64,000 nt of DNA, taken from NCBI GenBank assembly GCA_029961745.1, contig CP124680.1, positions 372,001 to 436,000 on the forward strand, in the 5' to 3' direction. A program made the position numbers and the translations under genes. Position 1 is the stretch's first letter. Every line of letters starts with the position of its first letter. Below the pieces are notes generated by a model. The model worked only from the letters and a program-made list of their open reading frames with translations, was not told the DNA's origin and made no database searches. Origin of the DNA: Nocardioides sp. L-11A. Lineage in GTDB: Bacteria; Actinomycetota; Actinomycetes; Propionibacteriales; Nocardioidaceae. Positions 31,500 through 33,938 of the stretch are shown in pieces.

Positions 31500-31554
31500 G
31501 TACCCGGCATCTCGGTCGTGATCCGAGCCGATCCACGACCGAGATGCCGGGTAC
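31500..31554. repeat. Perfect 21-bp inverted repeat; member 1 of a hairpin family, possible terminator
   Basis: Arms at 31500-31520 and 31534-31554 are perfectly complementary (starting GTACCCGGCATCTCGG) around a 13-base loop with GATC. It lies 22 bp after the MFS stop. No T-run follows. Two more copies with clear sequence similarity lie at 42943-43007 and 46774-46834, both also at gene ends. Confidence 0.75.
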
Positions 31555-31637: not shown

Positions 31638-31730
31638 AGCCTCGCTCGGATCGTGCATCGTGCTCGCGCTGGACGGCAGGTCCGCCGGTGAGCGCGCGGG
31701 GCGCGATGACGTGGAGAAGGGGACTGATCA

Positions 31731-33938
31731 GTGAGAACGACGACACAGAAGCAGCGGACGCGCCGGACATGGCCGGCCGCGGTCGCCGCGGTGGCCGGTG
31801 CCCTGGTGGCAGGGGCCCTGGCGGTGCCGGTGCCGGCAGCGACCGCGGAGCCCGGACCGGGTGACCAGGTCTATGTCGGGCCGAGCATGCAGGGCTACTC
31901 GGGTACGGCGATCCACGGCGTGTACGCCGAGCCGCCGGCCGATCCCGGCAACCTGGGCACGCCGGACTACTGGGCCTACTGCATCGAGCACGACATCTCG
32001 GCCGGGTCGCACATCACGGGCGGGCTGGGCGAGGCCGCGGACTTCCTCGGCAACAACCACTTCACCGACCCGGCCATCCAGGGCAAGGTCCTGTGGGTGC
32101 TCGCCCACAGCTACCCGGCGCTGAGCCTGGCGGACTTCGGTGCTGCCGCCGGCGTGCCGGGCATCTCCGCCGACGACGCGATCGAGGCGACCCAGTACGC
32201 GATCTGGCGCTACACCGACCTCACCTTCGACGCCCCCTGGGTCTGGGAGACGCAGGACTCGCAGGACGCCTACTGGTATCTCGTCAACGGGGCGAACGCC
32301 AGCGGCGGCCTGACCCCGGCAGACCTTCGCGCCACCGCGGAGATCGCTGGTCCCGCGGCCGTGCAGCAGGCCGACTCGCTGGTCGGCCCGTTCACCGTGA
32401 GCACCAGCCAGCCGACCGCCCAGGTCTCGGTCGCGCCCGCGTTGACCGTGACCGACGCGAGCGGGACGCCGGTCGACACCGCCGCCGTGGTCGACGGCCA
32501 GCAGCTCTACCTCGACCTGCGCGGCACGCTGAGCGCCGGCTCGGCCACCGTCACGGTGACCGCGACCGGCTCGGGCGCCAACGGCAGCATCATCTCGGTG
32601 CCCAAGCAGCCGGGAGGCACCGCGACGCCCGGCGATCACGCGCAGTCCATGATCCTGATCGCGCCGAGCACGGCCACCGTCACCGACTCCGCCGCCGTCG
32701 CCTGGGTGGCGCCGTCGATCGGCACCAGCCTGGTCGACGCCGCCGACGGCGACCGGGTGCTGCCGGCCGCGGGTGGCACGGTGATCGACGCGGTCGCCTA
32801 CCAGAACCTGACGCCGGGCACGTCGTACACGATCACCGGTGAGCTGGTCCGCAAGTCCGACGGCTCCGCGACCGGCATCACCGGCTCGGTCACCTTCACC
32901 CCGACTGCGGCACAGGGCAGCATCGACGTCCACTTCACCGTCCCGGCCGGGTACGCCGGGCAGCAGCTGGTGGCCTTCGAGGAACTGGCCGTGACCGGGT
33001 CCGCGACCGTCCTGGCCGAGCACAAGGACATCGACGACGCGGCTCAGACGGTCAGTGTGACCGCCGACAGCACACCCGGCCCGGCTGCGGTGTCCCTGAC
33101 GACGGAGACCTCGAAGGCGACGGTCAAGCCCGGCGCCGAGGTGTTCGACACCGTCACCATCAGCGGGTTCGTCCCCGGGCACGGCGCGACCGGCTCCGCC
33201 ACGCTCTACGGGCCGTTCGCGACGCGCGATGAGATGGCCTGCACGCCCCAACACGCGGTCGGCACGGTGTCCTTCGCCCCGGCGAACGGCGTGATCCGGA
33301 CTCCCTCGGTGAAGGTGGCCCGCACCGGCTACTACACCTGGGTGGCCGCGACGACGGCCGACAGCCGCAATGCGGCGGCCACGCACGCGTGCGGTCTGGC
33401 CTCGGAGACGACGCTGGTGCGCAAGCCGTCGTACCGTGCGCCCGTCGTGGCGACCGGGTTCAGCTCCCCGGGCGCCGACGTCGCCGGCCGGCGCAAGGCG
33501 ACCCGGCTCAGCATCCCGTCCCTGGGCGTCAACGCCCGCACCACGATGGTCGGGATCAAGAAGGGCGCCGTGCAGGTCCCGGGCCAGGTCGCCCGCACCG
33601 GCCAGCTGCGGAAGTCGGCCGCGGCCGGCGACCTGATCGGCACCACGGTCATCGCCGGGCACGTCTCGGACCGGCACGACCGCCCCGGCGCCTTCTGGAA
33701 GCTGACCCGGGTCCGTCCCGGCCAGGTGGTCACGGTCCGCGAGGGCAACCGGACGGTTCGCTACCAGGTCGACTCCGTCGAGCGCTTCTCGCGCGCGAAG
33801 CGGCTGCCCCAGCGGTTCTTCTCGACCGTGGGCGAGCACCGGCTGGTGCTGATCAGCTGTGCCGGCCGGGTGACCACGGCCGGCGGTGGCTTCCACTACC
33901 GCCAGAACGTGGTGGTCACGGCGACCCCGCTGGACTGA
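31731..33938 (+). CDS. Secreted thioester-domain (TQXA) / VaFE-type adhesin fused to a C-terminal sortase domain
   Basis: 735 residues. Signal peptide 1-40 (RTRRTW, then AAVAAVAGALVAGALAV, cleavage near ATA-E). Residues 45-165 form a TQXA thioester domain: C84 in YCIEHD and Q155 in ATQYAIW are the residues that form the internal Cys-Gln thioester in Gram-positive adhesins. Residues about 330-450 resemble a VaFE/T-Q ester repeat (Q-QLVAFEEL at 410-419). A further Ig-like domain follows (about 455-565). The last 150 residues are a class F/D-like sortase: LSIPSLGVNA, TVIAGHVSDRH with catalytic H644, LVLISCAGR with C710, and R724 in HYRQNVVV. No LPxTG motif or C-terminal membrane helix is visible, so attachment is unexplained. 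Adhesin and sortase domains normally sit in separate proteins. Confidence 0.85.
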   Translation: MRTTTQKQRTRRTWPAAVAAVAGALVAGALAVPVPAATAEPGPGDQVYVGPSMQGYSGTAIHGVYAEPPADPGNLGTPDYWAYCIEHDISAGSHITGGLGEAADFLGNNHFTDPAIQGKVLWVLAHSYPALSLADFGAAAGVPGISADDAIEATQYAIWRYTDLTFDAPWVWETQDSQDAYWYLVNGANASGGLTPADLRATAEIAGPAAVQQADSLVGPFTVSTSQPTAQVSVAPALTVTDASGTPVDTAAVVDGQQLYLDLRGTLSAGSATVTVTATGSGANGSIISVPKQPGGTATPGDHAQSMILIAPSTATVTDSAAVAWVAPSIGTSLVDAADGDRVLPAAGGTVIDAVAYQNLTPGTSYTITGELVRKSDGSATGITGSVTFTPTAAQGSIDVHFTVPAGYAGQQLVAFEELAVTGSATVLAEHKDIDDAAQTVSVTADSTPGPAAVSLTTETSKATVKPGAEVFDTVTISGFVPGHGATGSATLYGPFATRDEMACTPQHAVGTVSFAPANGVIRTPSVKVARTGYYTWVAATTADSRNAAATHACGLASETTLVRKPSYRAPVVATGFSSPGADVAGRRKATRLSIPSLGVNARTTMVGIKKGAVQVPGQVARTGQLRKSAAAGDLIGTTVIAGHVSDRHDRPGAFWKLTRVRPGQVVTVREGNRTVRYQVDSVERFSRAKRLPQRFFSTVGEHRLVLISCAGRVTTAGGGFHYRQNVVVTATPLD

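Follow-up and report, generated by a model that had tools for sequence, protein, structure and literature searches.

What does a sortase do when it forms the C-terminal end of an adhesin? The question is raised by a gene of Nocardioides sp. L-11A that lies on the forward strand at positions 31731–33938 of the 64,000-nucleotide stretch of contig CP124680.1 analyzed here (the window), and that encodes a thioester adhesin fused to a class F-type sortase. A first-pass annotation had recognized a thioester domain, a VaFE-type domain, an Ig-like domain and a sortase in one chain and knew of no described function for such a layout. Our literature search, which covered few subscription papers, likewise found no description of an adhesin–sortase fusion, and no class F motif besides LPXTG. 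What class F sortases do physiologically is called unknown in the accessible part of a study of Actinoplanes missouriensis, where deleting all four class F sortases altered no phenotype examined, and where two proteins encoded beside these enzymes have a helix and a basic tail with no recognized pentapeptide (PMC13251363).

Results

The open reading frame runs from a GTG codon to its stop without interruption (735 residues by ORF translation). A likely ribosome-binding site, GGAGAAGGGG (31713–31722, forward strand), was read by eye 8 nt upstream of the start. GC3 is 0.92–0.96 in every quarter of the gene. The neighboring genes are unrelated, with an MFS transporter upstream and a TetR regulator downstream, followed by PNPOx, Usp, P5CR and a second MFS gene. 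A perfect 21-bp inverted repeat with a 13-nt loop, seen by eye at window positions 31500–31554, directly after the upstream MFS gene, is probably a terminator.

Domain searches bear out the order of domains that had been proposed, all on the forward strand, and the TED, TQ and sortase matches all exceed their Pfam cut-offs. A probable signal peptide, judged from sequence and hydropathy, occupies residues 1–39 (31731–31847) and is likely cut between ATA and EP. The thioester domain (TED) follows at residues 81–189 (31971–32297; PF08341, E 3e-15, 56.8 bits against a cut-off of 22), with C84 (31980–31982) and Q155 (32193–32195) kept in 11 of 11 aligned rows. Next comes a TQ ester-bond or VaFE domain at residues 328–443 (32712–33059; PF18202, E 2e-29, 103.3 bits against 23.8), which also matches VaFE_rpt and has relatives among solved structures; T332, E417 and Q439, which we take to be the bond-forming residues of the PF18202/NF033903 domain, are candidates for its ester bond and are again kept in 11 of 11 rows. 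The full-length alignment (A3) was used solely for these residue counts; conventional anchors had landed beside sortase columns in it. The terminal Ig-like domain at residues 451–568 (33081–33434) was delimited by alignment A1 and is mostly beta in the predicted model, and a Pfam profile search returned no family for it at E≤1. Domains of this type recur as repeats within several of these adhesins. The chain ends in the class F-type sortase domain, residues 590–735 (33498–33935), with H644 at 33660–33662 and C710 at 33858–33860 (PF04203 over residues 593–733, E 5e-13, 49.4 bits against 26.6). These residues, like C84, Q155 and R724, are found where the first reading had placed them.

That reading had also held that LPxTG and a terminal membrane helix are absent, and here too we agree. 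LPxTG was not seen by eye in the 735 residues, and the LPXTG-anchor models TIGR01167 and PF00746 gave no match in the protein and none at the corresponding place in the genome. By hydropathy, the sole strongly hydrophobic 19-mer is residues 16–34, in the signal peptide (mean 2.23; next best 1.30), so that neither a C-terminal membrane helix nor, after the signal peptide, a membrane anchor beside the sortase was found. An N-terminal membrane anchor of its own, next to the sortase, is usual for class F sortases.

Class F is the best-scoring sortase class for the terminal domain (NF033748, residues 586–732, E 2e-22, 79.7 bits, which is below the curated cut-off of 166), class E scoring 23.0 bits. 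For residue counts, ORFs identical over their C-terminal 200 residues were represented by a single sequence, in the fused and the non-fused set alike (150 residues gave the same numbers), leaving 47 distinct fusions, which form 20 clusters at 60% identity, and 37 non-fused rows, among them seven sortase partners of split adhesins and two sequences from Corynebacterium. H644 and C710 are kept in 46/47 fused sortases and in 37/37 non-fused rows, and the position of R688 (33792–33794) is basic in 47/47 and 36/37. R724 (33900–33902) is arginine in 14/47 fusions (threonine in 22) and in 9/37 non-fused rows. It directly follows the conserved Y723 near the start of the last strand and, by our own comparison with the accessible part of the SrtE1 paper (PMC5148588), appears to take the place of SrtE1 Arg329, behind a conserved Tyr. 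A His-Cys-Arg set is said to be common to all sortases in the portion of PMC13257024 at hand. The first-pass annotation had named H644, C710 and R724 together; the first two stand, and because R724 is not conserved we reject it as an established catalytic residue and do not regard an H-C-R triad as established. One fusion (L096, from genome G114) has lost both the catalytic His and Cys and retains the junction core VTTG.

Non-fused class F sortases are thus nearest by profile and share the His, the Cys, Y723, the basic residue at 688 and the sortase fold. They are, however, encoded as separate genes, whereas the fused enzyme lacks a membrane anchor of its own, forms the C terminus of its putative substrate and scores below the NF033748 cut-off.

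A structure model was predicted for the last 285 residues (Ig-like domain, linker and sortase; profile length 287), which we call the module. A first model, from eight sequences, was set aside (pLDDT 49). The alignment used thereafter took in 27 of the 39 viral class F sortases found, the more divergent ones being left out, and gave a pLDDT of 89.2 and a pTM of 0.83, with lower values in the linker (64 for module residues 121–130, 61 for 131–140). A fold search confirmed a sortase beta-barrel in the C-terminal part of this model, as the first reading had expected, and residues 572–577 form a predicted strand. The fold lists are headed by pilin-specific class C sortases, and some alignments begin before the sortase core. 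The alignment to the class E sortase SrtE1 (5cuw) starts from residue 122 of the model (V572) and residue 168 of the chain, and SrtE1 residues 168–170 belong to that enzyme's linker peptide, which is bound next to Cys320 and Arg329 according to the part of the paper available (PMC5148588). The start of the junction motif is thereby predicted to lie in the sortase groove. Class F-like sortases were seen at 42 viral contig loci in IMG/VR (L184–L225), several of them on contigs that another scan had also found. The fusion module itself had no relative in a scan of viral contigs, and viral models yielded no fold match at E ≤ 0.001.

The fusion is real, and it is not the single strange protein first described. 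In this genome of 5.68 Mb, assembled as one contig, a profile search found seven complete modules, each ending a different protein (C1:405084, the present gene, and 447800, 492612, 599663, 613710, 872806 and 878357, the last two on the minus strand). Their stalks comprise TED and TQ domains in two (405084 and 599663), DUF7507/DUF11 in one, SdrD_B repeats in two and Big_9/cadherin/NHL in two. Quite different stalks carry the sortase module, which is thus a general, anchor-like C terminus. All seven lie within about 475 kb (C1:405084–879235), with 872806 and 878357 side by side. The seven strong class F matches of the genome are these seven fusions, and three weaker matches are other sortase-like ORFs. 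A membrane sortase of the genome, which we read as class E, adjoins a protein that ends in LPNTG, a helix and RRR; a second anchor match, at C1:4664380, gave no clear C terminus.

Nor is the module a unique oddity of one genome, a possibility that we rejected on its recurrence in related genomes, where the first-pass annotation had proposed to look. Whole modules, meaning one-frame matches from profile position ≤6 to ≥283 of 287, occur in at least 22 of 198 family genomes and at least 6 of 396 phylum genomes, the present genome included in each; these counts, with at most 12 and at most 6 candidates scored per genome respectively, are lower bounds. The other five phylum genomes are listed in the same phylum and not in the same class. 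Four more family genomes (G072, G076, G129 and G176) have the Ig-like domain and the sortase as separate matches of one frame.

Relatives of the adhesin part reveal what the module replaces. Outside Nocardioides and Pimelobacter the closest come mostly from Microbacterium, and also from Leucobacter and Arthrobacter, and all eight examined (L011, L014–L017, L019, L023 and L026; hydropathy was scored for seven) end in LAxTG, a membrane helix and a basic tail. The relatives from Nocardioides and Pimelobacter (L009, L010, L012, L013 and L018) end in the Ig-like domain, the motif and the sortase. The module stands where relatives carry a conventional anchor, and has replaced it. The fused protein shares with thioester-isopeptide-ester (TIE) adhesins (PF08341 with PF18202/VaFE) the signal peptide, the Cys/Gln thioester domain and the ester-bond stalk; TIE relatives end in LAxTG, helix and basic tail, whereas the fused adhesin ends in the Ig-like domain, a V-x-T-G motif and a sortase.

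Seven family loci (L111–L117) are split, with an Ig-ended adhesin and a sortase in neighboring or overlapping frames, the sortase having, by eye, a hydrophobic N terminus of its own. The split adhesins end 20–64 residues past their last Ig domain, with VPEIPSGP in six and YVPAGG in one; the L116 adhesin continues past its motif into a helix and a basic tail.

Directly before the sortase, the alignment, its controls and the predicted strand point to a conserved, non-LPxTG, sorting-signal-like motif, P571-V-V573-A-T575-G576-F577 (33441–33461, forward strand), with a predicted cut between T575 and G576. The absence of any sorting signal, as first noted, therefore holds for LPxTG and not for this conserved motif, V573-A-T575-G576-F577. 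Across the 47 fusions G576 is invariant; position 573 holds V or I in all but one, which has F; position 575 holds T (29), G (15), S (two) or A (one); residue 571 is P in 36; and residue 577 is F in 29, R in six, Y in five, P in three, G in two and V and S in one each, aromatic in 34/47. The loose core [VIF]x[TSGA]G is present in 47/47 fusions, in the C termini of 7/7 split adhesins, in 3/36 internal Ig repeats and in 6/37 of the 40-residue linkers ahead of non-fused class F sortases. The strict form [VIF]xTG is found in 29/47 fusions, 0/7 split adhesins, 0/36 internal Ig repeats and 0/37 non-fused linkers. Because the pattern was picked after viewing the data and the search profile contained the junction, the evidence lies in the contrast between these groups and not in the pattern itself.

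The fusions from outside the class (L146–L150) read IQTGR, ISTGR, INTGR, IATGR and ILTGR at the junction. In a tree of 84 class F-like sortase rows (148 columns, no other sortase classes), these five form their own clade (100/95), set off by a branch (99/93) from a clade (99/96) comprising the other 42 fusions together with the seven split partners. As they are separate from the other fusions, either the fusion arose more than once or it was split repeatedly.

A similar core is found beside non-fused class F sortases. It was noticed in 12 tailed ORFs of a first set of loci, and we then surveyed 40 hand-picked non-fused class F loci, mostly on long contigs, 20 from the phylum and 20 from the family matches. 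In 29/40 a same-strand ORF with a C-terminal helix and basic tail ends near the sortase start, some genomes appearing twice among the loci, so that the 29 ORFs are not all independent and some are close in sequence; a tailed upstream ORF was not found in the remaining 11/40. Within the 35 residues before the helix, [VIMF]x[TSGA]G occurs in 28/29 and [VI]x[TSA]G in 25/29 (for example VDAGSAGL, VATGAGG, VPTGTAGL and VDTGQGG), and the core lies 8–18 residues before the helix in 26 of the 28 (12 residues in ten). Omission of the five loci that gave the lead (L241, L242, L244, L246 and L249) leaves 23/24 and 20/24. Shuffled tails contain the loose core at 31% and [VI]x[TSA]G at 18%, and control ORFs with a helix and basic tail contain them in 6/24 and 3/24, 14 of these 24 being LPxTG- or LAxTG-like. 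Four of the loci (L261, L262, L274 and L278) have GHPxTG. On these comparisons, [VI]-x-[T/A/S/G]-G followed by a helix and basic tail may be a class F sorting signal.

Discussion

We suggest, with moderate confidence, that the protein is a self-sorting surface adhesin in which substrate and class F sortase share one chain. The chain would lose its signal peptide on export; the thioester domain at its N terminus could then bind a target covalently, and the ester-bond domain would stiffen the stalk. At the C terminus the putative class F motif V573-x-T575-G576 would be followed directly by the class F-type sortase, in place of a signal, helix and basic tail. The motif would enter the groove of this sortase, in cis, or of the one in a neighboring copy; C710 would attack the T575–G576 bond so that the adhesin becomes acyl-linked to C710, and the adhesin would be handed to an amino group, most likely that of a peptidoglycan cross-bridge. 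The cleavage, the acyl intermediate, the action in cis or in trans and the nucleophile are what we infer here. It had first been suggested that the protein might attach other surface proteins; with a conserved motif directly ahead of the sortase, action on its own kind of chain is favored over the attachment of unrelated proteins. Class E SrtE1 differs in acting on separate LAXTG proteins, whereas the fused sortase has its putative substrate in the same chain.

Several findings count against self-sorting. The main biochemical objection is the non-conservation of R724, which is likewise missing from most non-fused class F rows. Glycine at 575 in 15/47 fusions is an unusual residue before a sortase cut, the strict [VIF]xTG is absent from all seven split adhesins, and the four-residue core is degenerate, being present in about a third of shuffled tails. 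L096 keeps its motif after losing both His and Cys. After removal of the signal peptide, nothing visible holds the protein at the membrane until sorting. The class F enzyme of Cutibacterium acnes, for which Di Girolamo 2019 is reportedly the primary paper, must also be considered. In the accessible text of PMC13257024 it is the sole class F enzyme with a reported motif, and that motif reads LPXTG.

A linker lying in a sortase groove can also be a regulatory lid, and model confidence there is modest. Class C sortases have a lid over the active site, and are separate enzymes with another motif, not fused to a substrate. By analogy the motif could be a lid or pseudo-substrate that keeps the enzyme off until it is displaced, whereupon the enzyme acts in trans, the adhesin serving to place it. 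In the part of the SrtE1 paper available, the linker peptide AQA sits in the enzyme's own active site and is suggested to have a lid role, as in class C sortases, where a lid covers the active site; many SrtE1 enzymes have this peptide, which SrtE2 and the rest of class E lack, and the available text does not describe it as a sorting signal (PMC5148588). The place of class C sortases at the head of the fold lists, with some alignments starting ahead of the sortase core, fits as well. We nevertheless consider a lid unlikely: it does not account for the presence of this core at the ends of split adhesins, whose sortase is a separate gene, or ahead of the membrane helix in proteins encoded next to non-fused class F sortases, and only 6/37 linkers of the non-fused enzymes contain it.

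Less probable still is that the fused sortases link adhesins to each other or to other fusions in a polymer or network, with a lysine or N-terminal amine rather than the wall as nucleophile. Seven fusions with one module and one type of motif in one genome would suit such a network, and the best fold matches include pilin-specific class C sortases, but fold likeness across sortase classes shows no function. That the domain is a retired sortase, kept without catalysis to bind or cap the wall or a protein, is in our view improbable. The variable R724 and the loss of His and Cys in L096 would agree with retirement; against it, His and Cys persist in 46/47 fusions spanning the 20 clusters at 60% identity, and the junction motif is conserved along with them.

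Finally, an artefact of sequencing or gene calling that joins two genes has virtually no standing: two-gene split forms do occur in relatives, but the one-contig genome has seven intact copies, which rule out an artefactual join, and independent assemblies have many intact frames. The fusion is thus no assembly artefact, since independent genomes show it in one frame, and the one polypeptide originally proposed, with neither stop nor frameshift between its domains, holds.

Returning to the self-sorting adhesin, the domains and their chemistry are known; what would be new is an arrangement that amounts to a self-sorting protein. A large survey of adhesins searched for a list of LPxTG-like motifs and anchor domains, detected them in 846 of 1,666 training proteins and suggested that anchors of unknown kinds exist, in the part of that paper accessible to us (PMC9210967), and the module of Ig-like domain, linker and sortase could be one of these. 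More broadly, we hold the chances to be about even that Gram-positive bacteria have a self-contained display route, in which proteins bearing motif and sortase together attach themselves by an interchangeable C-terminal anchor cassette on unrelated stalks, and with it a signal for actinobacterial class F sortases that differs from LPxTG, [VI]-x-[T/A/S/G]-G, some 8–18 residues ahead of a helix and basic tail.

These fusions work like a Rosetta stone, in that a class F-type sortase is tied physically to one putative substrate and one motif. As a similar motif is found in the neighbors of non-fused class F enzymes, the specificity of class F becomes directly testable. If true, a system of substrate and enzyme in one chain would be useful for studies of sortase chemistry and for surface display.
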